From: Morinoia aosen
Lineage: Eukaryota > Arthropoda > Malacostraca > Amphipoda > Talitridae
NCBI GenBank assembly: GCA_030386875.1
Contig: CM059568.1
Span: forward strand, 11,146,316-11,210,315
Direction: 5' to 3'
DNA length: 64,000 nt
This document shows positions 22,353-64,000 of this stretch, piece after piece. Made by a program: the position numbers and the translations under genes. Within the stretch, counting starts at the first letter, position 1. Every line of letters begins with the position of its first letter. Below the pieces are notes generated by a model, which was not told where the DNA came from, made no database searches, and saw only the letters and a program-made list of their open reading frames with translations.

Positions 22353-22725
22353 CCTCCTCAGAGGGATACAGCTATGCATCTGAATGAGTTGTCACTCCTA
22401 GGGGAAATGTGAAGTCCCGAGCTGATACTTAGGTAGGCCTTCCTTTTGTTGAAATTGAATAGGTGTTTTGTTTTGTTAAGGATCATCTTTTTTCAGTTCA
22501 CTGCTGTCATGTTTTTCAGCACCTACTATTTTCATCTTCAACTTTTATTTTGTTTTATTACCTACTTGTCTTCTCAACTTGTTTCTATGCGCGAAAGTTT
22601 TGTGTTGGAACACACGTTCTGCATAGATTCCGCGTTTCCTTAGCTCCATACTAAATGGTGCTTCATCCTTTCTCTCTTTGGAACACTTTTATTGTGGTTA
22701 GAAAGGCTTAGACTAACTCGCCAAG
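22353..22725 (+). mobile_element. Family A retroposon, copy 1
   Basis: Near full length: CTCAGAGGGATACAGC head, TTAGGTAGGCC, GTTTTTCAGCACCTACT and TCCATACTAAATGGTGC in order, ending GGCTTAGACTAACT. Diverged from the better copies; no target duplication visible. Confidence 0.8.
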
Positions 22726-23800: not shown

Positions 23801-24228
23801 GGACTGAAACCGAAAAGTATTACAGTGACTGCAGCAATGATTCACTTGCAGGAATTTAAACCAAATCGTAAAGCTGCTTTTCTTATCCGCCCGTTGGGCG
23901 GTAGTGAGAAATTTCCGCGCTTAAAAGAGATGTACATGCATCCCTGAGGAAAGAACAGGAAAATGAAAGGAAACATTCAACGAATGTGAAAAGTTGAACA
24001 ACAATGCAGGATGTACTTTCGAGATGACTTTCATGAAGCGTAAATGAAGCGCATATATATGCCGAACTACGATAATTATTCGTTCATTGGTTTACTCTCT
24101 ATCTTCTTTCATAAATCTTGCAGTGACGTTGAACTTCTTGCGGAGCGGAGCTGCTGCTGTGAAATTCTCAGCTTTAGGATCTGGTTCAACAGCAAACTTG
24201 ACGGTGTTCTTACTGGAGAAACTCCGAC
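23801..24228. other. No feature seen
   Basis: Sequence between the MITE and a truncated family A copy; nothing recognised. Confidence 0.4.
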
Positions 24229-24360
24229 CTCGGGGGGATACAACTATTGTATCTATGGGAATTAGCATTCCCAGGGGGAAAATGTGAGGTCTCAAGCTGA
24301 GAGTTTGGTAGGCCTTTTCGTTGAAAGGTTTTCTTTGTTTTATTAAGGACTTTCTTTTCA
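24229..24360 (+). mobile_element. Family A retroposon, copy 2, 3' part missing
   Basis: Head GGGGGATACAACTATTGTAT, GAATTAGCATTCCCAGGGGG and GGTAGGCC are intact, but similarity stops after the T-rich body begins. Confidence 0.8.
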
Positions 24361-24573
24361 CGTTTCGCCTCAGTTTCTCCGCCGTCACCCTTGACGGCAA
24401 CTGACGACGCTACTTGGTGGATATTTGGTGTTGGTTGGTGTACAATTTCCTGCAGTTCACTCAGCACCGGCTCGGTATTGCGATGTACTATCGCCCTCTC
24501 GCAACTGCTGGACTGAAATGTTGGCTAATGTCTAGTTAATGACATATCGAGATGGTGATAATTGCGAATTTTT

Positions 24574-25326: not shown

Positions 25327-25334
25327 GAATTTTT

Positions 25335-26845: not shown

Positions 26846-26935
26846 TCCCCATGAGGGGATACAATTATGGATTGAGCTTATGGGAATTATCGTTTTCAGG
26901 GGGAATATGTGAGGTTTTGCGCTATAAGTCTGAGA
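26846..26935 (+). mobile_element. Family A retroposon, copy 3, fragment
   Basis: Only the structured head remains: GGGGATACAATTATGGAT, TATGGGAATTATCG, AGGGGGAATATGTGAGG. Strongly diverged. Confidence 0.65.
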
Positions 26936-29794: not shown

Positions 29795-30199
29795 TCCCTC
29801 AGGGGGATACAATTATTGTATCTATGGGAACTAGGGCTCCCAGGGGACACTGTGAGAGCCCGAGCTGGGAGTTAGGTGGGCCTTCTTTTTTGTTGAAATA
29901 AAATGTTTTTGTTATGTTACGGACCACCATTTTTCGGTTCACTACTGTCCTGTTCTTCAGCACCTACTACTTTCCTCTTCAACTTTGATATTGTTTTCAT
30001 GATCTTCTTTCACAACTTACTGTTTCTATGCCCCTTCAGCATAGATTCCTCATTTTCTTATCTCCATACTAAATGGTGCCTTCCTCCTTCCTCTCTTCGA
30101 TACGCTCTATTTTTGTAGCAGTTAGGGAGGTTTAAATTAACTTATCTAATCTAATCTTGTTGCTGGGTAGGGAGGCTAAAACTAACAACTAATCTAATC
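29795..30199 (+). mobile_element. Family A retroposon, copy 4, with target duplication
   Basis: Complete copy with head GGGGGATACAATTATTGTAT and a duplicated 3' end (the GGGAGG...TAACTAATCTAATC unit appears twice). Flanked by TTAGAAGGCCTGGT at 29781-29794 and 30200-30213, a 14-bp target duplication. Confidence 0.92.
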
Positions 30200-30986: not shown

Positions 30987-31300
30987 CCCTCCTCAGAGGG
31001 ATGCAACTTGTGTGTCTATGGGAATTAGCGCTCACATAGGGAAGATGCCTGAGCTGAACGTTAGGTAGGCATTCCAATTGTTGGGCTAATTTTTTTTGCC
31101 GTTTGGCTGTGGGCACTTTTCCGATTCACTACGGGCCATTTTTTCTGATTCAATACGATCCTGTTTTCAACGCCTATCACTCTTTCGTGATCTTACGTCA
31201 TGTTTCATTAGCTTCTTAACTCGCTGCTTTTCTATGCGGAGATCTTCTGTGAGAACTTGCCTGCCACTCGTCAGATTATCCCAACTCAGCAGGGATGGCA
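30987..31300 (+). mobile_element. Family A retroposon, copy 5, degraded
   Basis: Head CTCAGAGGGATGCAACTTG, TATGGGAATTAGCGCTC and TTAGGTAGGC are clear; the body fits loosely (ACGCCTATCACTCTTTC, TATGCGGAGA). Confidence 0.7.
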
Positions 31301-33496: not shown

Positions 33497-33519
33497 TTAT
33501 GCGGTGGGCACCGGTGCCC

Positions 33520-33795
33520 TCAGGGAAGATATTGTAAAGTTATATAGGCTATAGGTAGGCCTTCGGGACTTCTACCTTTTGTGCCCACTTGCTCCATCCA
33601 GTTTTCATGCTTTCTTCGTTCTCTCTACTTTTTCTTTCATTTCTCATCTTAATTTGCTGCATCTTTGGGCACGTCATCGTGTGTAGGAACGCACCTTGTG
33701 CTTTGATTCCCAATTTTATACAGTGCATATTAAACTCTTTCCGCTCTCTTGAGATCGCCTGTGTTGTAGTTAAGGAATCTTAAGCTCATTCAATT
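33520..33795 (+). mobile_element. Family A retroposon, copy 6, old
   Basis: Recognised by order: GCCCTCAGGGA, TAGGTAGGCC, the T/C-rich body, CACCTTGTGC, CTCTCTTGAGAT and GTTAAGGAATCTTAA. Much diverged. Confidence 0.55.
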
Positions 33796-33796
33796 A

Positions 33797-36700: not shown

Positions 36701-38438
36701 TTAGCGTGGGTTAAAGCCAACGCTCTGGTCAGATTTTGGGGCGACCTGAACATGGTGTTGAGGTGATGGCTCCGAGGGCGTGCTTCCGTGTGATCGTACC
36801 TCCCCTCACGTATATTTCGTGCCTCCTTAGGCTCTGAAATTTTTTTCAATCCAATGTTTTATAACGTCTCATGTATTAACTTTTTTGGAAATAAACGGGT
36901 TTTCTTCCTTTGCTGGGCGGGCGCTACCTTACCAGGCTGGCACCCCACCAATGTCAGGTTCCAGCATTGCGAAAGAAGAGGTGTATCGTATCTAGCCCGC
37001 TGATAAGGGATCGGGGTTTGCCCAGCCTGTCTTGGGGAGTTACGAGGCGAGGTTACCTATGGGATTCCGGAGCTACTCGGAAAAGAATTGTGATAGAGCG
37101 GGCCCGCTGATAACTGGGGGTTCAGTGTTTAGTTTTATGTGTTCACGCAGACTCGACATCGTTTGTTGTACCTTGTGCATGCTGAGCCATATAATGTGCC
37201 TATTCTGTTCTTTGTCCTGTCTTGTTGACAGAACTTGCGAGTGTTCAACATTCTTGAAATAGTCGCTTCTTTGAGTTGCATTCAGCCGTTCTCGTTGGCA
37301 TCATAACGGACAATGACAATTCGAGAACTCTAATTACATGACAATCTTGGGGAACGCCGCAAAGTGCCTTCGTTGTGGTCGGGATTGTGGTGCAATAATT
37401 CCATTGATAAAAATGTATATTCCAGACATTAGAAAGGCACTAATAATCAGTTTCACTTATGCATTCTCCTCTGAGATCTGCATTCCCCTCAAAAAAATGT
37501 CTTTGATCGTAGTTTCGGAACTTCGTAGTCTTTGTGGGCCGTGAGGCGCGCAGGATTCAGAAGCTCTACCAAGTGTTCTGCTGCCCCGCGTGTGCTCAAC
37601 TCGGCGTCACTGTGCTCACCGTTACCACTCGATCTAAGCAAATGAGCCACACTGTTGCACCTGGCATTGGTGGGTTATGCAATTTTTTTTGTTTTTTTCT
37701 CTGTTTTCTTGCCTCTTTCATGCTCGTGGGAGTGACCGAGAATTACACAAAGCAAGAAAGTTTTGCGACTCGTACACAACTTTTTTTAATGTTGCTTCAT
37801 TTATTTAGTTGTTTCTTGAAAATTGCGTCGTTCCGACGCTGTGAGCCACTGTGGAAATATGACTGTGTATAGAATTTATCTAGGAAGGGCTAATTTGATG
37901 ATAAACATTCTTGATTACAAATATCAGTGGGCCATTACTATTTTGCGTATTTCAAAACTATTTTCTAATTGGAATGAAATTTAATTCACACGGTGGGAAG
38001 TGTTCCCGAATAAGAATAATCCGTTCTTCCGCGACTGCGCACTACTTGCAGAATTACTTGCAATAACAACCTAGCTATCTTTCGAAAGCTGCGTTTGTGT
38101 CTGTCGTTTGACAAAAATATAATCTAATATCATCTTCCTCCTCCCCAAGTTGTCCACGGCTGGTTACCTCAGCACTCTTCCCACTCTCCTCTTCTGGTTA
38201 GGAAAAATTCTCCGCTACTTAATTGATGTACGAGGCAAAAATTGCGGTGCATTGCAGAGCTGTTGCCTGGCCCTCCTCTGAGGCCGCCGGGTCATGTATG
38301 GCTGATGGGCGGCCCGTGTTGAGTTGAGTGGCCCGGCGGTGTCGCTCTGGGGGTGCCCCCTCACGGACTACGAAATGATCAAGTGATCAATTAATAAAAT
38401 CGGCTCTTCTGTTTTGGCATATTGTTGTTATTGAAGTA
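33797..38438. other. 4.6 kb with no gene supported
   Basis: Open frames up to about 110 codons on both strands without domains. A GGAAATAAACGGG stretch at 36888-36900 resembles the tail of the 26-bp repeat element and the SINE, so a retroposon 3' end may sit there. Confidence 0.4.
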
Positions 38439-38768
38439 GCTCCCAGGGGGACAATGTGAGGGCCCGAGCTGAAGGTTAGGTAGGCTTTCTCTTTTGTTAA
38501 AATAGAATAGGTTTTTTTTTGTTACGGACCATCTTTTTCGGTTCACTGCTGTCCTGTTTTTTCAGCACCTACTACTTTCTTCTTCAACTTTGATCTTGTT
38601 TCATGAACTTCTTTCTCATCTTACTGTTTCTATGACCTTTCTGCATAGATTCCCCATTCTCTCATCTCCATACTAAATGGAGCCTTCCTCCTTCCTCTCT
38701 TCGATACGCTCTTTTTTTTTGTAGCGGTTAGGGAGGCTTAAACTAACTTATAATCTTATAATCTAATC
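38439..38768 (+). mobile_element. Family A retroposon, copy 7, 5'-truncated with target duplication
   Basis: Begins at the internal GCTCCCAGGGGGAC, lacks the first hairpin, then is complete to CTAATCT. Flanked by TGTTATTGAAGTA at 38426-38438 and 38769-38781. The 5' truncation with an intact duplication is what target-primed reverse transcription gives. Confidence 0.92.
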
Positions 38769-39234: not shown

Positions 39235-39428
39235 CTGTCCTGTTTTTCAGCACCTACTATTTTCTTCAATTTTTTCTTGTTTCATGAACTTCTTTCTTAG
39301 CTTACTGTTTGTATGCACCTTGTGCATAAATTCCGCGTTCCCTAAACTCCATACTAAATGGTGCTTTCAACCTTCCTCTCTTTGAACATCTTTGTTGTGG
39401 CAAAGGGATTTTAAAACTTTGTTATACA
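39235..39428 (+). mobile_element. Family A retroposon, copy 9, 3' half
   Basis: Starts abruptly at CTGTCCTGTTTTTCAGCACC within the tail of copy 8, and continues to CAAAGGGATTTTAAAAC. Either a 5'-truncated insertion or an unequal-exchange product. Confidence 0.82.
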
Positions 39429-49300: not shown

Positions 49301-52300
49301 TAACAAACTTGAAAATTTTAAACATTTCGAACGTGAAATTTTTGTTGCATTTGGTTTCTCAAGAGCTCTAAATTTTTTATTCTGACTACTCGGCATCATG
49401 TACATTTCAGTTCATGTTATAGAATTTATGTTATGAGTGCGTGTTGGTATATAAACCTTTTCATTCGCCAAACTAGTTGACGTCGCGTGAAAAAAACTTA
49501 AAATATCAAGAATATTCTATGGTGTCGTCTGGAACCAGGAAGCGTTGTTCTTTTGTATTGAAGTGAACGGCTAATTGCATATTTCTTTGCGCACAAGTCG
49601 GCTGATCTCCTGGTCAGTCTCTCACTCATGTGCTAGGCAAACGCTTGGCTCAGCACCACCCACTCCTACTCTGCCCCCATTTTAATGCGTAAAGTCGCCC
49701 ATAGACGATCAATTTGATTGTCAATATCATCGACTCAATATATTGATGAAATTTTTTTTACCTACCATGTCAATTCATTGACGGTCGTCAATCAAGCCCA
49801 CAGACGATCAATTAAATTGTCAATATTCATCACTGTCAATTATATTGACAATAAAATTGATCGTCTATGGGCCGCTTAAAGTCGCCACAACTTGAGCACA
49901 CGACGCGGCTGCGTACACTGAACTCTGTTCTGGATGTCGTGCAGCAAATGAAGAGCGTGCAGCGCTACCAGAAGCGGCTGGAGTACCACCTCAGCCAGGT
50001 CGAGGATCTGCTCGACCAGTACAGCCTGCACCAGAAGCTCAGAGAGGGGGTGAGTGTGCGCCTCCAATCAAGTAGGTAGGACCCAAGGACTACTGTATCA
50101 TACTGATAGTTGTCCTTGGTAGGACCCGTAATGCTGGCAGCCATATCTTCATGACTTTTTCTCGCCTAAATTTATTCCTTTGCTAACTCGTTTAAGGGGG
50201 CCCTCCGCTTAAACCTGAATTTTGATCCGATTGGTCTGAAATTAAGCCAGTATATGTATTTTGGAAAGAGAAACATATTTGGCGGGAAAACTTTTTTTGA
50301 TTTGGCCTTAGTTTTTTCGAAAAATTTGAAAAATAAGTTTTTTGAGTAATTTTTGTACATATTTCAAAAAGATAGAAGTTAAAAAGTTCTTATGCTAGAA
50401 CAAATTCAAAGACAGTTTTGGAATCCTCGTGATATTGCGAACAAACTGATTGACCTGGAATTTCTATTTGAAGCTTTATTTTTTCTCGATATGCGATATT
50501 TGATCAATACCTAAAATGTACCTATTTTTTAGGCTTTGAACAAGCCTAAAAAAAATTAAATGTACAAATCGGAAAATCAAAGCCAATCAGTTTGTTAGAA
50601 ATGTTTCATGGATTCTAAAACTGTCTTTGTTTTCTTCCTAGCATAAAAACTTTTTGACTTCTATCTTTTTGAATTTTGAAAAGAAGTAACTTTTCAGTAT
50701 AAGCGAAAAACAAAATTTTTTGTTGAAGTGTAATATAATGGAAAATTTATTTAATTGAATGCTGTTTTCATTTTAATTTTGATAATCTCCATGTATAACA
50801 TCATATTCACGCTGTGAATTTTATTTTAGAAAAAAATAAATGATAAAAAAATAATTTACTTGTTTCATAAAATTATGGAATTTTTTGTTTTCAGTCTCAT
50901 TCTTATGAAATTTGACTATTAAATGTAACTTTTGAAAAGAAACACAATTTCTTCTATACATTTTTTTGATTCAGGCCTTAGTTTTTGAAAAAATTTGACA
51001 TATTGGTTTTTAGTCCACTGGTATTGATATTTCAAAAGAATAGAACTCATTGAGTTTTTATGCTAGAACAAAAATAAAGACAGTTTTACAATCCTTGGAA
51101 CATATCTAACAAAAGTACATTCGCAAATTTGCCATTTCTTTCTTTGTTTTCTTTTTATATGGGGTCGAAATGGGGTCGAAAATTTAAGATTTTGGTCCCC
51201 TTGGGGGGGATCTATTGTCCGCAGCGCCATAAAATTTTTTTACCGAATAGTCCACCACCTAAGGGTCCTTTTCCAACAAAAACATGAAAAATGACCATCG
51301 GAGAGAAAAGGGGCCTCGGAGGGCCCCCTTAATACTTTGACTGCAATAAGACCCATCGGTGGGTCGTGTTCAAGTTTTTGCTGCTGCGTAACGACCCACC
51401 GATGGGTCGTTTGAAAGAAGTTTTAACAATCATTCAAAGTTAATGCTATTTAATGAGCCTAGGTAATGTTTGGTATTAGTAAAATTTCTAGCAACTTTTG
51501 AATTTAAATTAGAGTTGAATACTGAACTTCAGTTTAACCCATCGCAGTCAACGTGTCAGGTTTGGCCAAGAGGCGGGGCTCTAGCTGCTTCACATCTTGT
51601 CAGTTTGCCCCTTAAGGGGATACAACTATTGTATCTATGGGAATTGGCGCTCCCAGGGGGACTATGTGAGGGCCTGAGCTAAAGGTTAGGTAGGCTTCCT
51701 TTTTGTTGTAATAAAATAGGTTTTTGTTTTGTTTCGGACCATTTTTTTTCGGTTCACTGCTGTCCTGTTTTTCAGCACCTACTACTTTCTTCTTCAACTT
51801 TTTTCTTGTTTCATGAACTTCTTTCCTAGCTTACTGTTTCTGTGCACCTCGTGCATAGATTCCGCGTTCCCTCAACTCCATACTAAATGGGGCCTTCCTC
51901 TTTCCTCTCTTGGAACATCTTTGTCGTGGTTAAGGGAGGCTAAAACTTTCTTATATAATAATAATAATCTTGTCAGTTTGTGCCAACATTTCTAGTACAC
52001 AACCAACGATCCCGATGGGAACTTCACTCATCGTCGAAGTTGTTTTTGCGATGTTCTCAGGAACTAAACCGCATTCTTGCAGTGCGTTTGTTATCACAAG
52101 TTTCCAAAACCTCTTGGTTTTATTGGTTTAGCATTTTCATAAGTGATGTAATAGAAAATTTATTCCTAATCTACTATTTAATTTACCAAGGTTTTATGGT
52201 TCATTCTGGCCACACAGTCGCTTTGCCATCGATTTTTGCCTTCAATTCTGAATTTTCTCTGATTTTGATGCACTTGTTGTATTCTCTCCAATTTGATAAT

Positions 52301-55300
52301 TCTTTCAAATACCTCGACCAATTTGTGAGCTTATTTTATCTTCCCATTTATTTCGGAGTCTTCCTCGTTGCCTTCATTTAACTGATCTTTCCCTTGTTAG
52401 TCTTTCGATAGTCACGTCTCCCTCGTTCATGCATTGAGTGCATCTAGCAGCTATGTGTTGCTCTCGACCTCCTGTCACGGCAGAAGAGACAAGGTAGGGT
52501 CAAACCAGTCTTTTTGGCGACCGTGTGGCAATGCTGACGTCATGGCAACGGACCAATAACAGCGCTCATATTGCGCCTGGCAACACTGCTAGCCCTAAAT
52601 CTGGCTCCGCTATTAGCCTAACGACATGTCGCAATGGTGACGTCATGTTTGTTTGAAATGAAGCCGTTGTATTGGCTAGCCGAACAAGACAAGGTGTATT
52701 TTCCTCTATAGAAATTACAATACCTTGTTTCCTCTACCGTGCCTGCTGCACACCCTGCCTCAACTCTCTACTCCCGAGCAACACGTACACTCACTACGTC
52801 CCTACGTGCGCAGGTGCGGAACATGGCCTACGCGTACGCCATGTCACCGGGCAAGGAGCGCACGACCGCTCTTAATAACGTGCGCTCGGGCTACAGGGAG
52901 TGCACCGACACCCTCTGCGCTCTCGAGGTGCAGATCGAGCACCTGCTCGGCACGCTCACGCTCGAAATGAAGGGTGAGCAGCCGCTGATGCCAGTCAGCG
53001 TCTCACTACCTTGGGGTTTTTAGAGTCTCTGATGTCATTCTGCCCTTATATTGGGAGCTTGTGTCGTAGGTTCATCCTATAATAATTCATGTTGGTTCAG
53101 AGTACTTAATGGACGTCACCTGGCAGGCAACACACGAGTCAAGTTGCTCTTATTGCAGGAAGAGAAAGTCTTGGCACGTTTTTATTGATGTATTACAACA
53201 AAGCGAGTTTGGCAGCAGGAACTAGGATGGTGTTATTTTATAGCAAAGGTTATATTTATGTGCGTAAGTCTAGCATGGAAATGGCATTCGGCCTCTCGCC
53301 TGAGCGAGCGTGGATCTGGTCTCGCCCTCGTCATGACTAGTCTTCGTGCGTGCCTCCTGAGGGTGGAGACACACACAGCGGAGACGACAGCTGGTAGAAT
53401 TTCATACTACGGTTGTTTGAAAACTTCGAGACCTGAGCAAACGTGACTGCGGAGTATAATTTAACATTTCAGATGAGATCTTGGAGCGACATGGCTAATA
53501 ATCTGCATATTGTACAAATCGAGACGGAATGACTTCACAACGTTCTGGTTGCAATCGTAGATATAAAGACATTGAGAGGTAAAAAAATACGAGCTCCGTG
53601 ACAGCGAAAGTTGAGTGTGGTCAAGTCTCACAGCCTTCTTTGACCTCCCCTTGCTGATAACTTGGACGTGCTCAGATGTATTACTTTGGTAAGTGAGACT
53701 GATATGAATCGTTTGATGAGTTTGTGTATATGTCATTGAAAGTATGAAAGCAATCAACTACAAAACACCTTAACGCAAACTACAACTCACTAAAGGCCTG
53801 GATGGGACAGTCTTCGAGGCGACAGGTCACTGTTAATTAGAGCGCTTCCTGGAACACTTCACTGTTGCGTCGAGGGTTAGAGCCACTGCCTACTTTATGC
53901 GTGACGAGTTGGGGTGCGTTTTGTGTGCAGGTATACAGGGGTTCGCGCGGCTGTGTCCTGGCGACGTGTTCGAGGTGACCATGAAGCACGGACGTCAGAA
54001 GTGGCGCAGCAGGGGGCGCGTCGGGCGGGAGGGCTCCCAGAACTGGGACAACAGCAGGGCTGCCTTCAAGGCCCTCATCGGCGAGGGGGTGAGCTCTCGT
54101 CACTTTGTTGGCAAAGTCCTCAACCCTTTACCTATCAAAGTCCCTAACTCTTTACCGTCAAAGTCCTCAACCCTTTACTGTCGAAGTCCTCAACCCTTTA
54201 CCGTCAAAGTGCATTTCAAAATCATTTGTCATAAACGCTCTAATATATATTATTCCTTATGAAATTTGTGCCCCAATGTGTTCTTCGAAGTTCATTGTCG
54301 AGTGGCAGTCACTTCCTCGTCGTGATGTCGGTGACACATGATGCCGGTGCCAGTTTCATGATCGTGGTTGTGATTACGGTAATACGAGTGCAAAATGCGG
54401 ACTTTAAAGGTTAAATTTGGTGGCTTTTCTCTTCAAGTACGACCTTAAAAATCATTTAATATCTAGCAACCAGGCAGATGCTGGGTGGTCTTCCTTTCTT
54501 AATTTTGCCTTGTGTCATACTCAGTAGCGATGATCTCAGACTGTCTTGGATATTATCTGTTAGTTATCCTCCGTTTTCATTGCACAATTATCATTTTACT
54601 TTCACTGAAAGCCGGTGCATCATCCCCCAACTTTCACTTGCGAATTTCCCTGTCTTATTTCTGCTGTGGACTCGTGTTGCTTTCTCGATGTCCGGTAATT
54701 TTTACCAGTTCAGGGTTATGGTAAACCGGTGCAGTTCTGTTACCCATTAAAATTGCTAACCATATGATACACGCCTTCATAATTGAGTAAATACGTGCGT
54801 GAAAATCGAAATTAATACTAGTGAACTATTTGGTGCTTCACAATCAGTCGTGGATCTTTTTCATTGTACGATATTCAGGAATGAAATTGTCATTATCTTC
54901 ACAGATCATGAGAGGAATTTACGAGATATGATATTCAGATTGAGGGTTCATTATAAACAAATGAATTTCAGTCTTAAAAACTTAGGTTATTGCTTGTTGT
55001 ATACATTGGATGTTCAGAAATATTGATGTGCTCGTGGTGTCGCTTCTCGTGTGTGAGCCGGAAGCCCTGAGGTGTTCCTAGTCTTTAGCCACCGACCTAG
55101 TCGTTAGCCACCGAATGCGCTGCTCTGAGTGTGGAAATCTGTGAGCTTCATATGCCTTAGTTAACTCTGGAGCTTGCTAGAACTCTCTCTCTCTCTCTCT
55201 CTCTGTGACGTTGTGTTCTACTGAGCAATCAACCCATTCAATATCGTAGTTTTCTAGTTCTCTTGCCAATCTAATTTCTTATATTCCCCTGTTGTTGACA

Positions 55301-58300
55301 TCTATTTTGTCGGGTAGGCTCGTATTCCGTGAAGTTTTGCAGTTATAGGTTTTATCTTTTTAGTGCAAAATCTGCTTTGTTATCGATAATTTTACATCAC
55401 ATGAGCATATGCTGCCCACAACATTTTCTCAAAGGCAAGTTTTAAGCTCCGCGTGTGGTGCACGGACGCTATTACTGACACCCCAATTGTTTTAACGTCT
55501 CCGTCCACTCCTGCATGGACTGTCCAGAAGTTACAGTTTTAAATAACGCCTATTTTCTGTGAAGGAGAGCAATTTCTTCCAAAAAAAGAATGCATGGGAC
55601 TTTCCGAGCAGTTGCACATGAAGGCGGTCGAGGTGCGGCTGCTGGGTAAGAGCGTGCTGATCGGCCAGCGCGAGTGTGAGACGAGGGAACTCTTCTCGCC
55701 TCACCCTCAGCTCATGACCGTCAACCTCAACCACGCTGGCTCCCTTAAACTCAGCGTCGTCGTCACGTGGAAGTGAGCACTTCTCATCCCACACTCTGAG
55801 GACTTTATATTTTGTTATGAGTATGACTTTATGTTTTATTATAATGATGACTCTATATTTTATTATAAGTATGACTTTATATTTTATTATAATGATGACT
55901 TTATATTTTATTATAATGATCACTTTTTATTTTACTTTAAAGATGACTTAATATTTTATTTTAAAAAGAGGACTTTATATTTTATTATAAAGATGACTTT
56001 ATATTTATAAAGATGACTTTATATTTTATTTTAAAGATGACTTTATATTTTATTTTAAAGATGACTTTATATTTGTAAAGATGATTTTATATTTATAAAG
56101 ATGACTTGATATTTTATTTTAAAGATGACTTTATATTTTATTTTAAAGATGACTTTATATTTTTCTTTAAAGTTCACTTCATATTTTATAACTAAGTTGA
56201 CTTCATATTTTATAATTAAGATGACTTTATATTTTTTAATAAAGATGACTTTATATTTTATAATTAAGATGACCTTATGTTTTATAATTAAGATGACTTC
56301 ATATTTTATAATTAAGATGACCTTATGTTTTATAATTAAGATGACTTTATATTTTATAATTAAGATGACTTTATATTTTATAATTAAGATGACTTTATAT
56401 TTTATAATTAAGATGACTTTATATTTTATAATTAAGATGACTTTATATTTTATAATTAAGATGACTTTATATTTTATAATTAAGATGACTTTATATTTTA
56501 TGTATTTTTTATATTTCGATCTCGTGGTTAATGTTCTGCGCTTGTTAAACTTTAATACTCTGTTTTCCTAAGGTGTTCTTTTTTCCTACGGTGTTTTTTT
56601 CTTAGCAAAGCTTCTACCGCAAGTATTTAGATAGTTTGCTTTGTAAAAGTTTACCACAATTTCGTTATTTATTTAGTTTGACGCAGTCAGTAACTAACTA
56701 CAATTATCGTATTCAAAATGATGTGCAAGTAGTGTAGACATTAGCATGGTGCAGCGCTTTGGTTTGACGAGTGCTTAGGACAGCCCCCACAATTCTAGTA
56801 AGAACGGTGCATGTGTGCCGACTGTTTCAGTAAACTGGAATTTGCTGCATCCGAACGCACGAAAAAAAGAGACTTTATAGAATGAAGCAACCTTTCATTA
56901 AAAATTGGAGGACAACGCTCACGGTTCCATATAACGACACTTATGAGATTGTGTGCTGAGCAAATTATCCCCCACTAAATTTTGGAATCAACATCTAATG
57001 ATTATAGGTTGTAATCAACATCTAATGGAAGCTCTCTGTTAGAACCACAAGTGTGATCAACATCTAATGGAGGCTCTGTGTTAGAACCACAAGTGTGATC
57101 AACATCTAATGGAGGCTCTGTGTTTGAACCACAAGTGTGATCAACATCTACTGGAGGCTCTGAGTTAGAACCACAAGTGTGATCAACATCTAATGGAGGC
57201 TCTGAGTTAGAACCACAAGTGTGATCAACATCTACTGGAGGCTCTGAGTTAGAACCACAAGTGTGATCAACATCTAATGGAGGCTCTGAGTTAGAACCAC
57301 AAGTGTGATCAACATCTAATGGAAGCTCTCTGTTAGAACCACAAGTGCGATCAACATCTAATGGAGGCTCTGTTAGAACCACAAGTGTGATCAACATCTA
57401 CTGGAGGCTCTGAGTTAGAACCACAAGTGCGATCAACATCTAATGGAGGCTCTGTTAGAACCACAAGTGTGATCAACATCTACTGGAGGCTCTGAGTTAG
57501 AACCAAAAGTGTGATCAACATCTAATGGAGGCTCTGAGTTAGAACCACAAGTGTGATCAACATCTAATGGAGGCTCTGTGTTAGAACTACAAGTGTGATC
57601 AACATCTAATGGAGGCTCTGTGTTAGAACCACAAGTGTTTAACATTTACTGCCCTGTGTGCACACAGCCCTCTGGACGGCGGCGCTGGGGGAGGGCTGGC
57701 GCCTCCAGAGGACTCACCTCACTCGATCATCCGCACGGCATCCCTCTCATCCTCCCCCTCCACCCTTGGCGGTGGGCGCCTCCTGCACACCCCCACGGGA
57801 GGCATGCCGGCCTCCTCCACACCCCTCACTTTCACGCGGGTTTGTCATCCTTTTTGTCGTGTTGCAATTTCTTAACTCGGGGGGAAACGTGTGCATATTG
57901 AAGATTTAGTTCTTGGGGCCAAGAATGAAGTTGATATGTTTTTTATTGTAATAGGAGGCAAAGGAAGTTTTTTGTTTCAGTTAAGAACTCTGTCCACATT
58001 ATGACCAATAATAATAGTGGGGAAGAGTTCAAGCATTTTTTGTGGTAATTTTTCTCTAATTTTTGCTTGCATTCGTTCCTCCGGCTAAGTTCCTCATAGA
58101 CCTCTTTGGAATTTGTCTGACGCTAACTTTACCAGCAAATGATCAGGAGTTGTGCGTTTTCTGCAACTTGACTCTCTGACTCAACCTTACCCGTACGATC
58201 TGGTTGAAAATAGCTCCATATCTTGTAAATATTTCTTCAATTCTGTCAACTAATGTTGAATTATCTGAAGCGGCGTAAAAGATGGAATATTTTCAACTTT

Positions 58301-61300
58301 GAAAGAGTCCATGCTGTCCGACAAGTAAATCGAGGTTCATCTCTTAGTTGAATGTGTGTTTGAAATTCCGTAGACTTTTTCACGTATTTCACGCACCTCT
58401 AATGCAATGGTGTAGAAGGGAGCTAGCAATGGCCGGGTAACATAGCTTGGCTACTGTGGACGTACTTGAAATGTTGACCCTTGTACTGAATACGAACTGA
58501 AAAGTTTTTAAAAAATATAAAGCACGAATTTTTAATGCTATTAATGTAGATTTACGATCCCTTTATTGCGTATTGCCTTTACTATACAACGTGAAAACAA
58601 GCAAATTTGGACAAACGCTGTGAATCGAAGCAATATGAGAGCGTAAACACGCCCCTCGAAACACGGATACGAGTTTCTCTGCGGCGTTTGTGGTTGTATT
58701 ATTAGCTCATGCTTGATACGTTCTCCTCATGCTTAATGAATATCTCTGACTTCCTTAGATCTTTCTGGTGATAGGGCGTACATTGTTTTAAGCTTCGGTG
58801 AAGTTTTTTGACGTGTGTTTAGGGAAGATCTTGTTCATCCAAACACGATGCAGCATCTCACAGTGCAGCTGCGCTGAGTTGCGGTCGTTCATGCGGTGCT
58901 GTGTCTCACTTTCGTTGGTGCAGAGCCGCCGTGTCTCAGCAATGCTACCCCCCTCAGGGGGATACAACTATTGTATCTATGGGAATTGGCGCTCCCAGGG
59001 GGACTATGTATGGGCCTGAGCTAAAGGTTAGGTAGGCTTCCTTTTTGTTGTAATAAAATAGGTTTTTGTTTTGTTACGGACCATCTTTTTTCGGTTCACT
59101 GCTGTCCTGTTTTTCAGCACCTACTACTTTCTTCTTCAACTTTTTTCTTGTTTCATGAACTTCTTTCCTAGCTTACTGTTTCTGTGCACCATGTGCATAG
59201 ATTCCGCGTTCCCTCAACTCCTTACTAAATGGTGCCTTCCTCTTTCCTCTCTTGGAACATCTTTGTCGTGGTTAAGGGAGGCTAAAACTCTTATATAATA
59301 ATAATAATAATAACAGCAATGCTACCAGCCTCCTCTCATGGAGCTCACCGACGGGCAGCAGCATTGGGTGCATTGCTTCAGTTCACTGCACCCTCTAGTG
59401 TGAGATTTTGTTTAGTATTTGACGCGTTGTTGTTGCTGTGCAGCTGCTGTCGAGACCTGACGTCAGCTGCAGCATCCCCGAGTGCGCTGACAACGACAGC
59501 AGCTTCGGCAGCATGTCAGCACGCTCCTCCTCGCCTGACAGCTCTGCCAGCCCACTCCCTGCCACCGACTCTGCGGGCACCGGCGCTGACAACAACGCTG
59601 ACAGCCAGGTCAGCTAAATAAACTTAAATGCCTTTTTCTTCTTCCTTTCGTGTCTACTCTGGGAGATTTGACGCCCAGGTCGCTGCCGAGACTAGGGGTT
59701 ATGGATACAGTATTGCTAGAGATTAACGTAGTGAAAATGGGATGGAAGTTCGGTGCACAGGTCGCTGCCGAGGCTAGAGGTTATGGACAAGGTCCTGACT
59801 ACAGTCATTTTGGGTTCAGTATTGCTAAATTTCTGCGCTTCGAGTTATTTGTGGGATATTCTGTGATGTACTAGTGTTCTACTTCGCTGTTCACTTGCGT
59901 TACTTTTGTAATGTGTTCCTTTTGAGCACCTTTCAGCAGTATGCAGCTGTTGTGTCTCTTCTCAGGTGGATACAACTATCACATTTATGGGAATTAGCGC
60001 TCCCAGGGGAAAAATGTGTGAAGGCCCGAGCTGAGAGTTAGGTAGGCCTTCTTTTTGCTGAAGTAAAATTTTTTTTGTTATGTTAAGGGTCACCTTTTTT
60101 CGGTTCGTTGCTATCCTGTTTTTCAGTACCTACTACTTTCTTCGTCAACTTTTACCTTGTTTCATCAACTTTTTTCTCAACTTACCATTTCTATTCCCCT
60201 TCTGCGTAGATTCCGCGTTCCGCTATCTCCATAATAAATCGTGCCTTTCTCCTTCCGCTCTTCGGAACTTTTTTTTTAGCGGTTACGGAGGCTTAAACTA
60301 ATATCTAATCTAACTGTTGTCTATGGGAATTTACGCCCATAGGAGGGAAACGTGAGGTCAAGAGCTGACGGTTAGGAAAGCCTCCCTCCCATTGAAATAG
60401 AATATTTTTTTGTTTTGATACGGACTCTTTTCGGTTCACTGCCGTGGTTTTCACCACCTTTCCATGGTTCATCTTGATGCAAACTCAGAGGAATGACGGT
60501 CTCTTACAACTTGTTTGTTTCGAAGAAATTTTCTATCTTGGTGTTTCTATGCACAGGGTGTGGTGATATACCTTGAGCATACTTCCCCCTTCCATTAACA
60601 TTAAATGATACATTCCTCTTTTGGGAACACCCTATGTGTGGTTAGGGAGGCTTAAGCTAACTTAAAATCTGATCTGGCATTCAAAGGGGAATAACATAAG
60701 TAATTTAGAAATGATTCCAGTGCTCATGGTGCTGGTGAGCTAATATATGGGACGTAATTGAGAAACGATTCAATGATGATGTTGAGCTAATGTATTTAGT
60801 GGTGGCATGACAGGAGTGCCTGTCGTGCTGCAGCAGCGTGAGCCCCTCGTGCGACACCACCGGCAACTTCACCCTCGTACGCAAGGCCGAGACCCGCACC
60901 GAGCAGTGGGCCAAATATTCCCAGGTGAGCGTATTTTTTTTGTTAAGGGATTCTCGTGCTCTTTTGTGCGCGTTTGTGCAGTCCTGATACGGGTGTAGGC
61001 AGGCTGCATGGCTGGACGATGCCACCAAGATCATGTACGCGCTTGTGTGCCTTTGTAATTTACAATGTCCTGCCAGTTGTACCTAATGACTCGTTACTGC
61101 GGATTTTTCCGCGACCACTGAACAGCAGGTCATTCTTCTGCTGAGATTCGCCTGTTCTTTTCGCCTACAAACCATCGCTCGCCGCTCCTCTAGCGACCCC
61201 TTTCACCGTTGCCGATGTAAAATCATTACATGATACAATAAGGAACATCCAGAAAGAAATAATATGCCTTAGAGTGGGGTAACAAGTGGAACTTTATAAG

Positions 61301-64000
61301 ATATTCTTGCAGTGTTATATTCTAAAACCATTTGGGGTTTTTGGAACGTTTTATTCGTTTTCAAATTTATGTAGTACGTACGTAGTACTTGATGAATATG
61401 CTACGTGAAAACGAACAGAACTCGATTAATTAAAAACGTTCCAAGGAAACAATACGCATAAGCTTTGCTAATTGTTTTGTGATTCACGAGTTATTAAGCG
61501 ACTTAGTGGGTGTAAACTTGACGTGCAGTTCAGCGTATCGACGAGCAGCAACTTGGACCTGATATCTCGGTCGCACCCGCACCTGCCGTCCCTCACCCGC
61601 TCCTCGTCCTGCCTGCACCAAGATGGTGCTCCTGTGCCTCATGCTGACGAAGGCGGACCGAAAGGGGGTGGACTTTCTGCCTCGCTCGCTCAGCTTCACA
61701 AAGACAAAAGTGGCAGCCTTTTATCTCTGCTGAACGCGATGCGGTCGACGCCCTCACAGTCTCCCTTCAGCGAGCCCGTGAGACATTCGGCTCCCGACGG
61801 CTACTCCCTCAGCTCTTCGGACACTCCCAGCGAGGCTCGGAGGGATATTTCCGACTTGTCCCAGCCCTTGTCGCGGTTATCATCACATTCCGCGCTCTCC
61901 ACCAAATCTGCCTTTGAGAAACCTTCCAAGTTTGATTGCCCTGTCACGACGGCTCAATCCTCGAGCGACGTGAGCAATGTGGCCTTCATGTCGCGGTCGT
62001 ACACGGAAGTGGCCACGCCACGCACCAGACTCTGGTCCTCACACACGGACGACGGTCTGACTACAGGCTCCCCTGGTCACGATGCTGCGTTCGGTGACCG
62101 CCCATGCAGTAATGAGGAGGGTGCGGACCGTTCCTGCATCGACGGACCTGTAGGTGTGGGAGAAACTGCTGCAGGAAGTGTCTGTGAGGACGGCGGTTTA
62201 CTGGACTCTCAAAGAGTTGGTCAGGAGCGCAAGTGGGTGGCAGCCGCTCCTGACGTCTGGGATGCCTCGGCCGTGCCTCGCACTCTCCCTGAGGTGAGCT
62301 TTCTTCCTTTTTTTCATGTATAGTCTTTACATTCTGCATATCACCGAGAATGTTGCTTACGCTTGCGGCTAATTGAAATAGCGTGAAAGGGTTTTCTCCC
62401 ACACTTTACATATAATAGTCTTCTTCGTTTTTGTGTAAAAAATTTACTCTGTGGTACACAACCTTGTGTGAGAGCTTGGGAAACCCGTAAATATTTCCCA
62501 CTCTTTACAAGCTAGTAACAGCTTATTTAGATCATGTACTAAATGCTACTCATGTCCTCCACGATCATGCTACTCTTTCCACGTGATGCACATTTTGAAC
62601 CAAAGAGTACAGACAAGTAGTATAGAGTTATTACAAGTAGTTACAAGTTATTATGAAATAGCAGTTGATCACGATTTATTATTCTCCCCACAAAGAATTC
62701 AACTGTTGTATTTATGGAAATTGGCGCCCCTGGGAGGAAGTTGTGAGGTCCTGGGCTGAACGTTAGTTAGATGTTCTTTCAGATGAAATAAAATAGTTTT
62801 TTGTTTTCTCACGGACAATAATTTTCCGGTTCACCGCGGATTTTTTTCAGCACCTATTATTTTCTTCTTCAACTTTTATCTTATTTCTTATACATCTTCC
62901 AATGTTGCGCTTTCTATGTGCGGAGACATACCTTGCGTATAGATCAACGCCCCCTCAATCCCATGCCAAAGGGTACCTTTCGCAAGCCTCTTAGCTGAGG
63001 TTAGGGAGGCTTGAATTAACTTATAATCTTTATCTAATAGGTGTAGTCTACCAGGAAGTCTGCCTTACGTGTCCAGGTCGCTTCTTGGGGTCCAGTTACC
63101 TGAAGTGTCAATGTAAGTGAGATGTGTCGTGTAGGTGACATGTGTCGTGTAGGTGACCGCCACCTTTGAGCAAATATTTAGTGCGGCTGGAATCTGTGCT
63201 GGATGAATTTACGATAGTTAATGTGGATTTTTTTTAAGGATTGCTATCGGAAAGACTTAGACCGCACAAGTACAAGAGAAATAAAAGAAATATACTAAGA
63301 ACTCTTTTAAAAACAAAAGCTGTATTTTTTATTTTGTTGACAACTGGGATCATTTTGATGCATTGGCCCATGTGAGCTAAAAGAAGGCACCATTGCAGCT
63401 CGTGGCCCGCGTGTACGCCTGCCTGGAGGACATCCAAGGCCAGTTCGCTGCGCTGCACCACCTCGAGGAGGCCGTGCACCAACTCAATGTTCTCTGCGCC
63501 GTGAGTCTTGCATCCTGTTGTGCGGATAGATTTCCAATTAGGTCGAAAAAGTATCATTTTCTTGTAGAAAATGTAGAAAAAGTAGACTTGCTGTAAAATG
63601 TGTTACTACCTGATCCCATGTATTGCTAGCCGAACAGTTTGTATTTTTAGAGGTCTCACAGAAGATATGTACTTTTGGCTGAAATTAATAGCCGCGTCTT
63701 TCTAAGACACGATTTATTTACCTCAAGAGTAAGATGTCCCTTTTGTTACTGGGTTAAGGACTGTAACTTAATATCTTCATCGCGCGAGCAGGTAGCGAGC
63801 AGACGAGGCAGTGTGGACTCGAACGCCAGCTTCAACATCGAGGCGGCGCTTGAGTGCTTCGACTTCCTCGACGACGAGACTGACAGCCCACTGACGGCTA
63901 GACGCGTGCTGGCCGACACCGAGAGTGGCGAGGCTTCCGTCAAAAGTCCCGACTCTTTAGACCCTAGGATTTTAGTCAGATCCAACGTGAACTCTCTAGA
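43192..64000 (+). CDS. RIPOR/FAM65-family gene, 15 exons seen, both ends incomplete
   Basis: Known of the family: RIPOR (FAM65) proteins bind Rho GTPases and act in the cytoplasm on cell polarity, migration and filopodia. Seen here: 15 exons join in phase to about 950 codons without a stop. Recognition rests on the FAM65/PL48 core at about residues 190-445: VRGLREG in exon 4, RYQKRLEYHLSQVEDL in exon 6, AYAMSP and SGYRECTDTLCALE in exon 7, GFARLCPGD and GRQKW in exon 8, ECETRELF in exon 9, and a TWNPLD motif created exactly by the exon 9/10 junction. Residues 445-846 are Ser/Pro-rich and probably disordered; exons 14-15 return to a structured, helical-looking sequence. No start codon or promoter is identified upstream of 43192, and the gene runs off the window at 64000. 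Vertebrate paralogues are usually 950-1220 residues, so several hundred codons are probably missing. I cannot say which RIPOR paralogue it corresponds to. Confidence 0.88.
43425..43703 (+). mobile_element. tRNA-derived SINE, copy 2, in RIPOR intron 1
   Basis: Perfect B box GGTTCGAGTCC at 43468-43478; A box region decayed. The body matches the inverted copy at 21 kb (GTTGGGTATAGGGAAAAA, AAATGGGTACCGG) and the tail is GGCTTGAATTGGAAATAAAA then GATGCCGATGTTTGTT. Confidence 0.85.
44601..44720. repeat. Dispersed repeat C, copy 2, in RIPOR intron 1
   Basis: Second copy of the 42.1-kb repeat; its left end CTGTACAGGGGGGCCAAAAT resembles termini seen at 32.97 and 33.49 kb. Confidence 0.8.
45022..45381 (+). 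mobile_element. Family A retroposon, copy 11, in RIPOR intron 1
   Basis: Head CTCACGGGGAGACGCAACTA, GGTTGGTAGGCC, body and ATTTTCTAATCTAATG end. Possible short target duplication CATTTTCT on both sides. Confidence 0.78.
45761..45985 (+). CDS. RIPOR exon 2
   Basis: Encodes a low-complexity Gly/Ala/Ser/Cys segment containing QQLSRSRSFGGGSRRG, resembling the basic SRSRSF-type stretch near the N-terminus of RIPOR proteins. The acceptor is TTGCTTCCAG. The donor is GTGGGT at 45986, leaving a phase-1 end; a GTGTCT a few bases further is a possible alternative. The intron after it (45986-46504) holds G/T-rich simple sequence near 46.0-46.1 kb and otherwise nothing recognisable. Confidence 0.7.
46505..46641 (+). 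CDS. RIPOR exon 3
   Basis: Encodes a Pro-rich stretch (SPPPVLGQQPPPTPREL) followed by RRAFSLPPHVK, a basic segment that could be a phosphorylation or 14-3-3-type site (inference). The acceptor GTGTGCAG and donor GTAAAC are good, and the phase-1 start matches exon 2. The next intron (46642-47212) carries a 5'-truncated family A copy. Confidence 0.75.
46830..47055 (+). mobile_element. Family A retroposon, copy 12, 5'-truncated, in RIPOR intron 3
   Basis: Starts in the body at about ATTTTCCAGCACCTATTAGC and continues through CATACTAAATGGTGCC to the 3' end. Confidence 0.75.
47213..47350 (+). CDS. RIPOR exon 4, start of conserved core
   Basis: 46 codons, phase 0 at both ends, encoding PKSPRPERSLTVGGAVVRGL followed by an REGVAVTTQDLMALRRLR segment. 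The GLRE(x)2AV pattern is what I recognise from the N-terminal helical part of RIPOR proteins. Donor is ATG/GTGAGG. The opposite strand has a 174-codon open frame here, which is a codon-bias shadow. The 1.3-kb intron that follows has no recognisable element; it carries a short direct repeat (CACATCCTTGTGTTGTA, twice) at 48.3 kb. Confidence 0.8.
48647..48676 (+). CDS. RIPOR exon 5, 30-bp microexon
   Basis: Ten codons (SHGRLYEAEK) between CTGCCTGCAG and GTGAGT, phase 0 on both sides. Skipping it would keep the frame, so it may be alternative. It lies inside the coiled-coil part of the core, where vertebrate RIPOR proteins have fewer residues. Support is the pair of good splice sites plus phase; a 30-bp open stretch alone is weak evidence. 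The intron after it (48677-49896) is AT-rich with no element until the MITE at its 3' end. Confidence 0.55.
49690..49878. mobile_element. Short MITE, family B, copy 2, beside the exon 6 acceptor
   Basis: Nearly the same sequence as 4477-4667. Termini GCCCATAGACGATCAAT and its complement. TAAAGTCGCC occurs at the left end and again immediately right of the element (49877), 10 bp direct repeat, but the ends do not line up cleanly as a target duplication. The element ends about 18 bases before RIPOR exon 6. Confidence 0.82.
49897..50049 (+). CDS. RIPOR exon 6, coiled-coil segment
   Basis: 51 codons, phase 0 at both ends, containing MKSVQRYQKRLEYHLSQVED and LLDQYSLHQKLREG. The R-Y-x-R/K-R-L-E motif is typical of the RIPOR coiled coil. 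The acceptor I chose is ACTTGAG/CAC; AAG/TCG at 49881 is also in phase. Neither has a good pyrimidine tract because a MITE ends about 18 bases upstream. Donor is GTGAGT at 50050. The intron (50050-52813) holds a 1.13-kb TTAA element, a TTAA MITE, a family A copy and a CRE/CCAAT cluster. Confidence 0.82.
50192..51332. mobile_element. 1.13-kb TTAA-flanked element in RIPOR intron 6
   Basis: TTAA at 50192-50195 and 51329-51332; terminal inverted repeats GGGGGCCCTCCG. The interior is AT-rich, lacks any long frame, and contains three related blocks (TATGCTAGAACAAA at 50391 and 51060 direct, and inverted at 50636) around AAAGACAGTTTT. A non-autonomous element of piggyBac or Kolobok type (inference from TTAA). 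Confidence 0.88.
51329..51559. mobile_element. TTAA MITE, copy 3, degraded right end
   Basis: Reverse-orientation relative of the 23.6-kb MITE, 223 bp, starting TTAATACTTTGACTGCAAT and ending CATCGCAGTCAACGTG followed by TCAG instead of TTAA. Shares its left TTAA with the 1.13-kb element. Confidence 0.8.
51608..51966 (+). mobile_element. Family A retroposon, copy 13, with target duplication, in RIPOR intron 6
   Basis: Complete copy, flanked by ATCTTGTCAGTTTG at 51594-51607 and 51967-51980 (14 bp). The tail is TATATAATAATAATA. Confidence 0.93.
52535..52675. promoter_or_regulatory. CRE/CCAAT cluster in RIPOR intron 6
   Basis: Two perfect TGACGTCA palindromes (52535-52542, 52638-52645), CCAAT at 52553 and an inverted CCAAT (ATTGG) at 52671. 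GGCAAC motifs lie next to the first site and again near 52590. The spacing resembles a compact enhancer or internal promoter just upstream of exon 7, but this is sequence pattern only. Confidence 0.3.
52814..52973 (+). CDS. RIPOR exon 7
   Basis: Encodes VRNMAYAYAMSPGKERTTAL and a YRECTDTLCALEVQIEHLLG segment ending EMKG. The AFAMSP-like motif and the YxECTxxxCAxE motif match the RIPOR family closely. Acceptor is TGCGCAG, donor GTGAGC at 52974; it ends one base into a Gly codon completed by exon 8. The intron after it (52974-53930) has no recognisable element. Confidence 0.88.
53931..54088 (+). CDS. RIPOR exon 8
   Basis: With the split Gly codon it reads GIQGFARLCPGDVFEV, then MKHGRQKWRSRGRV and QNWDNSRAAFKALIGEG. 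GFARLC.GD and GRQ+W are diagnostic of the FAM65/PL48 domain, the beta-rich part after the coiled coil. It ends in phase 0 at GTGAGC. The intron (54089-55611) begins with a 23-bp tandem repeat, then has a dispersed repeat at 54.25-54.40 kb and a (CT)11 run at 55183-55204; the rest is AT-rich with nothing seen. Confidence 0.9.
54116..54208. repeat. 23-bp tandem repeat after RIPOR exon 8
   Basis: Four units of GTCCTCAACCCTTTACCGTC plus AAA (the first is 24 bp), starting 27 bases after the exon 8 donor. Confidence 0.9.
54250..54400. repeat. Dispersed repeat, copy 2 of the 26.2-kb block
   Basis: AATGTGTTCTTCGAAG, GAGTGGCAGT, GCCGGTGCCAGT and TACGGTAATACGAGT follow the same order as in the 26.2-kb copy. 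Confidence 0.6.
55183..55204. repeat. (CT)11 microsatellite
   Basis: Perfect dinucleotide run in RIPOR intron 8. Confidence 0.95.
55612..55772 (+). CDS. RIPOR exon 9
   Basis: Encodes LHMKAVEVRLLGKSVLIGQR, ECETRELFSPHPQLMTVNLN and LKLSVVVTW. The CET(R/K)(D/E)LF and ..VVVTW segments match the C2-like end of the FAM65 core. The acceptor TTCCGAGCAG gives the expected family spacing, although its pyrimidine tract is poor. The donor is GTGAGC at 55773 after two bases of a codon. The intron (55773-57667) is mostly two minisatellites. Confidence 0.86.
55800..56500. repeat. 24-bp AT-rich minisatellite at start of RIPOR intron 9
   Basis: About 30 units; the last third is a homogeneous 24-bp unit (AAGATGACTTTATATTTTAT plus AATT), the first part is degenerate and of variable length. 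Starts within 30 bases of the exon 9 donor. Because 24 is a multiple of three it keeps a + strand frame open (unit MTLYFIIK). Confidence 0.95.
57011..57640. repeat. 42-bp minisatellite at end of RIPOR intron 9
   Basis: Fifteen units of GTGATCAACATCTAATGGAG plus GCTCTGTGTTAGAACCACAA and GT. On the minus strand each unit reads CGSNSEPPLDVDHT, open for 131 codons until units with a 2-bp deletion (57366 and 57450) shift the frame. Ends about 27 bases before exon 10. Confidence 0.95.
57668..57839 (+). CDS. RIPOR exon 10
   Basis: The first base completes an Asn codon so the junction reads TWNPLD, a RIPOR signature, which fixes the acceptor (CACACAG). The rest is Gly/Pro/Ser/Thr-rich (PEDSPHSIIRTASLSSSPS, GGRLLHTPTGGMPASS), a linker leaving the folded core. 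The donor is a non-canonical-looking GTTTGT at 57840; it keeps phase 0 with exon 11. The intron (57840-59443) contains one complete family A copy with a 13-bp target duplication. Confidence 0.78.
58950..59313 (+). mobile_element. Family A retroposon, copy 14, with target duplication, in RIPOR intron 10
   Basis: Complete and very close to copy 13. Flanked by CAGCAATGCTACC at 58937-58949 and 59314-59326 (13 bp); tail of TAA repeats. Confidence 0.94.
59444..59608 (+). CDS. RIPOR exon 11
   Basis: 55 codons in phase 0 beginning LLSRPDVSCSIPECADNDSS, then a Ser/Ala/Asp-rich stretch (SMSARSSSPDSSASPLPAT). Acceptor TGTGCAG, donor GTCAGC. It looks like part of a disordered, acidic, phosphorylatable linker. 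The intron (59609-60813) holds two family A copies end to end. Confidence 0.72.
59956..60315 (+). mobile_element. Family A retroposon, copy 15, in RIPOR intron 11
   Basis: Complete copy with head CTCAGGTGGATACAACTATC and a CTAATCTAAC end. CTGTTGT occurs at both ends, a possible short target duplication. Confidence 0.85.
60316..60675 (+). mobile_element. Family A retroposon, copy 16, directly behind copy 15
   Basis: 5'-truncated start TTGTCTATGGGAATTTACGC, then the body and GTTAGGGAGGCTTAAGCTAA. Older than copy 15 by divergence. Confidence 0.8.
60814..60924 (+). CDS. RIPOR exon 12
   Basis: 37 codons in phase 0, with a Cys/Ser cluster (ECLSCCSSVSPSCD) then NFTLVRKAETRTEQWAKYSQ. Acceptor GACAG, donor GTGAGC. 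No domain is recognised. The intron (60925-61528) is AT-rich with no element that I can name. Confidence 0.72.
61529..62293 (+). CDS. RIPOR exon 13, large Ser-rich exon
   Basis: 255 codons in phase 0, the largest exon here. It is Ser/Thr/Pro/Asp-rich with repeated S-S, SxxSP and DTPS motifs (LSSSDTPSEARRDISDLSQP, LSRLSSHSALSTKSAFEK), typical of the long disordered middle of RIPOR proteins and likely to be a phosphorylation target (inference). Acceptor is GACGTGCAG; the open frame extends upstream of it but only into intron. Donor is GTGAGC. The intron (62294-63398) holds the last family A copy. Confidence 0.82.
62683..63040 (+). mobile_element. Family A retroposon, copy 17, in RIPOR intron 13
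   Basis: AATTCAACTGTTGTATTTAT, GGAAATTGGCGCCCCTGGG, body TTTTTTTCAGCACCTATTAT and GTTAGGGAGGCTTGAATTAA. Degraded but collinear. Confidence 0.8.
63399..63500 (+). CDS. RIPOR exon 14
   Basis: 34 codons in phase 0: LVARVYACLEDIQGQFAALH then HLEEAVHQLNVLCA, a clear amphipathic helical segment after the disordered region. Acceptor CATTGCAG, donor GTGAGT. The LxDIxGQ pattern fits the region where RIPOR proteins resume conserved sequence. The short intron (63501-63791) has no element. Confidence 0.8.
63792..64000 (+). CDS. RIPOR exon 15, cut by the window edge
   Basis: Reads in phase 0 from GAGCAG/GTAGCG: VASRRGSVDSNASFNIEAAL then ECFDFLDDETDSPLTARR and on to the last base with no stop. The ALECFDFLDD segment matches the conserved acidic helix upstream of the C-terminal helical repeats of RIPOR proteins, which should lie beyond the window. 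Confidence 0.8.

Follow-up and report, generated by a model that had tools for sequence, protein, structure and literature searches.

Copies of a short retroposon, family A, lie almost exclusively on the sense strand of the genes in which they were sampled. In the window (the whole 64-kb stretch of DNA that was analyzed), all 17 copies read in the same direction as the RIPOR gene, and the sense bias proposed in the earlier note proved real, holding beyond the window in the other sampled stretches. Across all of the sampled DNA, one of 126 matches was an antisense fragment. Family A, a non-autonomous retroposon inserted by target priming, consists of ~353 nt and a (TAA)n tail; its copies are independent insertions rather than the products of one local amplification. 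The explanation that we prefer, to which we give about an even chance, is that the sense polarity arises at insertion and is coupled to transcription.

Family A copies in the window and their anatomy

We searched both strands of the 64 kb iteratively with nhmmer, with filters off, and obtained 18 family A matches at E < 0.01, all of them on the + strand and spanning 22,356 to 63,029 (Table 1). One of these matches (30,156-30,197) belongs to the copy that starts at 29,796, being a second version of its 3' end, and the target duplication of this copy stands beyond it; thus, we counted 17 copies rather than 18. This search found no minus-strand copy anywhere in the window and, at E < 0.01, no copy in its first 22 kb, where the sole remaining match was one of 30 nt at 4.16 kb (+; E = 3.3). 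The number, strand, and places of the copies agree with those listed in the earlier note, and the probability given there, about 1 in 65,000, corresponds to 2^-16 for a single strand, given independent copies. The target duplications that had been noticed on four copies were likewise recovered, those at 29,796, 51,610, and 58,951 by a strict search and that at 45,027 by a looser one. The first of several short tandem arrays in the window immediately precedes the first family A copy. The window scan found no tRNA genes, and no Rfam family matched the window at gathering thresholds.

The RIPOR gene lies on the + strand, where four colinear exons matching Pfam PL48/FAM65 were found at 49.9, 52.7, 53.8, and 55.5 kb. 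A probable further exon (61472..62320) had no Pfam match and has the top coding score of the window, although that score had been trained in part on this open reading frame (ORF) itself. Twelve of the copies (22 to 47 kb) precede all of the proven RIPOR exons; that they are part of the RIPOR transcript is suggested by the excess of T over A and by coding-like ORFs. The T-over-A skew was 0.028 before 22 kb and 0.104 after, a step with which a transcription unit starting near 22 kb would fit.

Table 1. Positions of family A copies, gene features, and other repeats in the window
Feature	Position	Strand	Evidence or remarks
Family A copy 1, nearly complete	22356..22723	+	nhmmer model 2-370, 301 bits
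Family A copy 2, 5' part only	24228..24374	+	model 2-155
Family A copy 3, 5' fragment	26848..26931	+	model 1-80
Family A copy 4, complete; 3' end present twice	29796..30197	+	model 1-374 + 335-375; 14-bp target duplication
Family A copy 5	30991..31261	+	model 2-262
Family A copy 6, 3' part	33606..33793	+	model 173-368
Family A copy 7	38421..38758	+	model 20-375
Family A copy 8, full length	38873..39225	+	model 1-375
Family A copy 9, 3' part	39235..39432	+	model 152-375
Family A copy 10	40874..41216	+	model 5-373
Family A copy 11	45027..45379	+	model 2-375; probable 12-bp target duplication (looser search)
Family A copy 12, 3' part	46782..47045	+	model 100-372
Family A copy 13, young, in proven RIPOR intron	51610..51961	+	model 2-375, 361 bits; between PL48 exons; target duplication ATCTTGTCAGTTTG
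Family A copy 14, young	58951..59299	+	model 1-371; target duplication CAGCAATGCTACC
Family A copy 15	59961..60313	+	model 3-375
Family A copy 16	60312..60672	+	model 16-375
Family A copy 17	62688..63029	+	model 3-373
ORF with RIPOR/FAM65 exon, PL48 85-140	49861..50076	+	Pfam PF15903, E 1.1e-9
ORF with RIPOR/FAM65 exon, PL48 131-193	52712..53020	+	Pfam PF15903, E 1.3e-9
ORF with RIPOR/FAM65 exon, PL48 191-249	53837..54259	+	Pfam PF15903, E 4.3e-17
ORF with RIPOR/FAM65 exon, PL48 242-298	55543..55773	+	Pfam PF15903, E 8.1e-12
Probable further RIPOR exon	61472..62320	+	coding score (see text)
Old piggyBac-like TTAA MITE	23571-23799	+	
Old piggyBac-like TTAA MITE	28659-28876	-	
Old piggyBac-like TTAA MITE	51331-51558	-	
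tRNA-derived SINE	43400-43655	+	
tRNA-derived SINE	21050-21307	-	
Tandem array	22000-22230		unit 33 bp
Tandem array	27320-27484		unit 22 bp
Tandem array	55745-56574		unit 24 bp
Tandem array	56950-57722		unit 42 bp

Twenty young genomic copies share one common 353-nt sequence, which starts with C(C)CCCTCAGGGGGATAC and ends with ATATAATAA followed by more TAA units. A TAA-type tail was present in all 20, and older family A copies carry TAATC-type tails. In 35 insertions, target duplications of 10 to 19 bp (mode, 13 to 14) were found after the (TAA)n or (TAATC)n tail, and five copies with a target duplication had been truncated at their 5' end upon insertion (model start, 33 to 337), one of them to only 39 nt. 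Target duplications, a simple-repeat tail, and 5' truncation together are the anatomy of target-primed reverse transcription. The best matches to the Pol III A and B boxes in family A were no better than those in shuffles (0.72 and 0.97 of the shuffles reached them), and the element holds six internal runs of four or more T, which rules out a Pol III SINE in the strict sense. Because a Pol III promoter was not found, the RNA of family A would more plausibly originate from Pol II. An introner was also rejected, as the termini are CCCCTCAGG... and (TAA)n rather than splice sites and several copies can lie between two exons (stretches L036 and L029). The sense strand of the consensus contains an intron-like core at ~77-168, with a donor-like AAG|GTTAGG or TAG|GTAGGC and then an acceptor-like CCTGTTTTTCAG; this core is well preserved even in diverged copies.

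The mover of family A is probably an I-type LINE. We know of no strand rule for I elements. A TAA-repeat tail, described for the I element (PMC3747384), is common to I-clade LINEs and family A, as are target duplications and 5' truncation. An I-type LINE with an RVT_1 match (E, 4e-32) was found in stretch L014, but its 3' end, as judged by eye from this one LINE, is unlike that of family A, and its reverse transcriptase (RT) frame, the only one seen, had no relative in the other sampled stretches. The open RT frame (7864-9783, -) lies on the strand of the local family A copies; this LINE also shows what appears to be an RNase H region and has a tail of TTA repeats.

Family A strand and gene strand across the genome

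Within the genome (1.99 Gb; 29 contigs), an exact 31-mer from the 5' part of family A occurs 9,273 times (4,572 forward, 4,701 reverse) and an exact 35-mer from its middle 8,971 times (4,420 and 4,551); true copy numbers are higher because diverged copies escape exact words. It is important to note that the 4,572:4,701 split is not a 50:50 ratio of the kind that would refute a sense bias, since the assembly strand is not the gene strand. To compare neighbors, we took the matches listed for both words, which cover the first 19.67 Mb of contig C1 and merged into 180 copies. Adjacent copies among these listed matches were on the same strand in 17 of 17 pairs less than 5 kb apart, 21 of 22 at 5 to 10 kb, and 18 of 19 at 10 to 20 kb (56 of 58 pairs under 20 kb in total). 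The same count was 27 of 32 at 20 to 40 kb, 12 of 20 at 40 to 60 kb, 13 of 20 at 60 to 100 kb, 13 of 23 at 100 to 200 kb, and 8 of 19 at 200 to 500 kb, or about half beyond 100 kb. The decay of strand agreement over 40 to 100 kb points to the scale of genes and not of replication domains. Polarity on the scale of chromosome arms or of replication was rejected on the same grounds, with agreement gone by ~100 kb.

We examined 336 kb of sampled DNA, which is enriched for family A and contains the 126 profile matches. In 20 stretches of 10 kb centered on young copies (18 of which carry two or more matches), 83 of the 84 matches had the strand that predominates in their stretch, with a single match against it. 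The T-over-A skew of the masked sequence, oriented by the element, was positive in 19 of these 20 stretches, with z > 3 in 16. Where Pfam-matched ORFs were present in the element-centered stretches, the exon strand was the majority strand of family A in five of five cases: INTS8 (L027), RING (L026), the cysteine-rich FGFR repeat (L025), DnaJ (L022), and ADH_N_2 (L011), the last with a match below the curated cut-off. A second set of 16 stretches, between or beside PDZ/RhoGEF exons, was picked without regard to family A. All 22 matches in this set were sense; they were spread over 12 of the 16 stretches and about ten genes, and the remaining 4 stretches had no copy. The earlier note would have taken a genome-wide sense bias above about 65% as support, and both samples exceed this level (22/22 exon-chosen and 83/84 element-chosen matches). 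The density of family A gave no firm excess that would indicate gene targeting, as the exact 31-mer was present once in the 69 kb chosen by exons (0.32 expected) and twice in the window (0.30 expected).

The lone antisense fragment (L011 9120-9294, +) is old, scores 45 bits, and adjoins the ADH-like exon; a sense fragment pointing away from it lies at a distance of ~97 bp. To all appearances, the antisense fragment is a genuine copy inside a gene. Another apparent exception was a young - copy on contig C4, at a distance of 16.5 kb from a RhoGEF exon on the + strand. Within 3 kb of sequence from this site, both matches were - and the T-A skew, computed with family A unmasked, was negative on the + strand; this copy probably sits in a separate minus-strand unit. 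Further, many PDZ matches were seen on contig C27 of the genome (G000) at ~55-72 Mb; they lie on either strand, each within one long open frame (~340-745 aa), and represent a local expansion of genes that appear to be intron-poor. Identical exon scores were also seen at two places on C4, 97.88 and 99.81 Mb (~2 Mb apart), with similar pairs elsewhere, and these pairs are either large recent duplications or uncollapsed haplotypes.

Other repeats served as controls. A piggyBac-like TTAA MITE of ~230 bp in the same stretches was split 11:10 between strands, and ten minor repeat families, identified with family A and the MITE masked, gave 4 same-strand and 12 opposite links. Thus, the stretches do not force one strand on every repeat. 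The only other recognized retroposon was a tRNA-derived SINE, found at 2 copies in 336 kb; its B-box word occurs genome-wide 732 times exactly and 8,521 times with up to two mismatches. Among the sparse matches listed on C1, tRNA-SINEs up to 50 kb from a family A copy were on the same strand in 8 cases and on the opposite strand in 2, and in a similarly sparse listed sample, tRNA-SINE neighbors less than 100 kb apart shared a strand in 3 of 11 pairs. The tRNA-SINE may share some of the sense bias, which, if real, would suggest a host-wide cause.

Possible origins of the sense polarity

If polarity is coupled to transcription at insertion, the primer would be a 3' end that the template strand offers where DNA is transcribed, and the first cDNA strand would be joined to that template strand, so that the new copy reads along the gene direction. 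Transcription could act as the source of polarity in one of two ways: the template strand may be exposed to the endonuclease, or RNA polymerase II may meet the intermediates on the template strand only, so that these alone are completed by repair. The RNA itself would be a Pol II product, possibly of the host introns themselves. We put a little short of an even chance on the specific claim that priming by family A is almost confined to the template strand of transcribed genes, so that its thousands of independent insertions record which strand germ-line transcription used.

The 20 youngest sampled copies, which are nearly identical, are already co-oriented, and the sense bias is equally strong in the youngest and the old copies. 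The five copies truncated at insertion are co-oriented as well, the 39-nt one included, and thus the body sequence of the element seems irrelevant to polarity. Splice-like signals, scored with rough matrices from general knowledge, were stronger on the sense than on the antisense strand (3' splice site, 9.8 versus 5.0; 5' splice site, 7.2 versus 5.7), and AATAAA occurs on the sense strand only. With such signals, the usual purifying selection should favor antisense copies; the argument that AATAAA on the sense strand speaks against simple selection therefore stands and extends to the splice-like signals. Taken together, the weak target preference (see below), the sense-side signals, and the bias in the youngest and in the truncated copies make polarity at insertion more likely. 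Coupling to transcription is further supported by the 22 kb ahead of the putative unit, which hold no copies, and by the lack of bias in the MITE and the ten minor repeat families, and it is weakened by the antisense fragment within the L011 gene, by the possible bias of the tRNA-SINE, by the lack of a firm excess of exact 31-mers in exon-chosen DNA, and by the unlike 3' end of the one I-type LINE seen.

The strongest alternative is that the strand is random at insertion and that antisense copies in genes are purged by purifying selection, which we regard as possible but less likely. Antisense family A RNA might pair with the many sense copies that its own pre-mRNA or other pre-mRNAs carry, or purine-rich, exon-like sequence on the antisense strand might disturb splicing; the antisense strand is indeed A- and G-rich, with weak splice-like sites. 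Selection would agree with the putative restriction to genes and with the indifference of less abundant repeats, and it could yield the same picture at modest strength, as in population theory a small disadvantage is enough. The sense excess of human Alu near exons has been ascribed to an antisense cryptic acceptor (PMC3088655). However, the splice-like and poly(A) signals of family A are stronger on the sense strand, and the bias has no exception among the 20 youngest copies of the sample and holds for a copy of 39 nt. Moreover, copies of random strand should be common outside genes, unless transcription covers nearly the whole genome, yet strands agree in 56 of 58 adjacent pairs less than 20 kb apart.

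That orientation tracks the direction of the replication fork rather than transcription is highly improbable. Any polar process would be expected to produce local agreement, and human L1 has a replication-strand preference (PMC10030826), but the agreement among family A copies is gone within 40 to 100 kb, and in each of the 10 exon-chosen genes that carry copies, their strand was that of the exons, which replication would have matched only in part. We hold it very improbable that the endonuclease merely prefers a T-rich site in introns that are T-rich on the sense strand: introns do have T over A, and the nick sites of the 35 insertions are weakly biased to T|W, but this preference (1.9 bits), applied to the sampled sequence, predicts just 58.6% sense and is too weak. 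Finally, local or tandem duplication, in which the strand would be copied along with the element, is scarcely credible and was ruled out for the copies tested: some copies do abut or nest (e.g., in L018 and L019), but none of 80 near-complete copies had its nearest relative in its own stretch (shuffled mean, 3.0) and 35 copies have their own target duplication, which bears out the earlier argument against a single tandem amplification.

Comparison with known elements and implications

A sense bias of retroposons is in itself already known, from SIDERs and from Alu near exons. In Leishmania, sense copies of SIDER1 and SIDER2 outnumber antisense ones ~4-fold within directional gene clusters (PMC2689281). 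Family A resembles them as a short retroposon with a strong excess along the direction of transcription, a likeness of behavior alone, the host here being an animal. The hallmark of SIDER-like retroposons is a 79-nt trypanosomatid signature. SIDERs are an extinct family in a polycistronic genome, located mainly in 3' untranslated regions and with an antisense excess between genes; family A, in contrast, has young copies, lies in ordinary animal introns, and has 1 antisense fragment in 126 matches. Alu, L1, and LTR elements are also intronic elements with a strand bias relative to the gene, and the antisense bias of mammalian intronic LINE and LTR elements has been read as purifying selection (PMC3088655). 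Selection of this kind should remove sense copies of family A. According to the same source, the sense excess of Alu is found near exons only, whereas the sense orientation of family A is nearly complete.

Family A does not form the intron in which it lies, and there are several copies per intron, each with its own target duplication. Introners differ in this respect, and their orientation is expected to be fixed because splicing demands one direction. They are described as mobile elements of introns for which one orientation is expected (PMC9860276). Among the matches listed from the open-access literature, we found no family with ~99% sense bias across animal introns; the bias of family A is stricter than that found described for other such elements.

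When elements in introns show a strand bias, selection is the usual interpretation. Family A is 98 to 99% sense, including its youngest copies, beside unbiased repeats in the same introns, and the outcome is either that insertion is coupled to the direction of transcription or that selection is unusually sharp. If insertion is coupled, target choice in target-primed retrotransposition becomes testable, the copies could also annotate germ-line transcription, and a strand-faithful insertion machinery, if true, would be of use for gene delivery. Either way, family A copies mark the gene strand and could be used to annotate transcription units in an unannotated genome.
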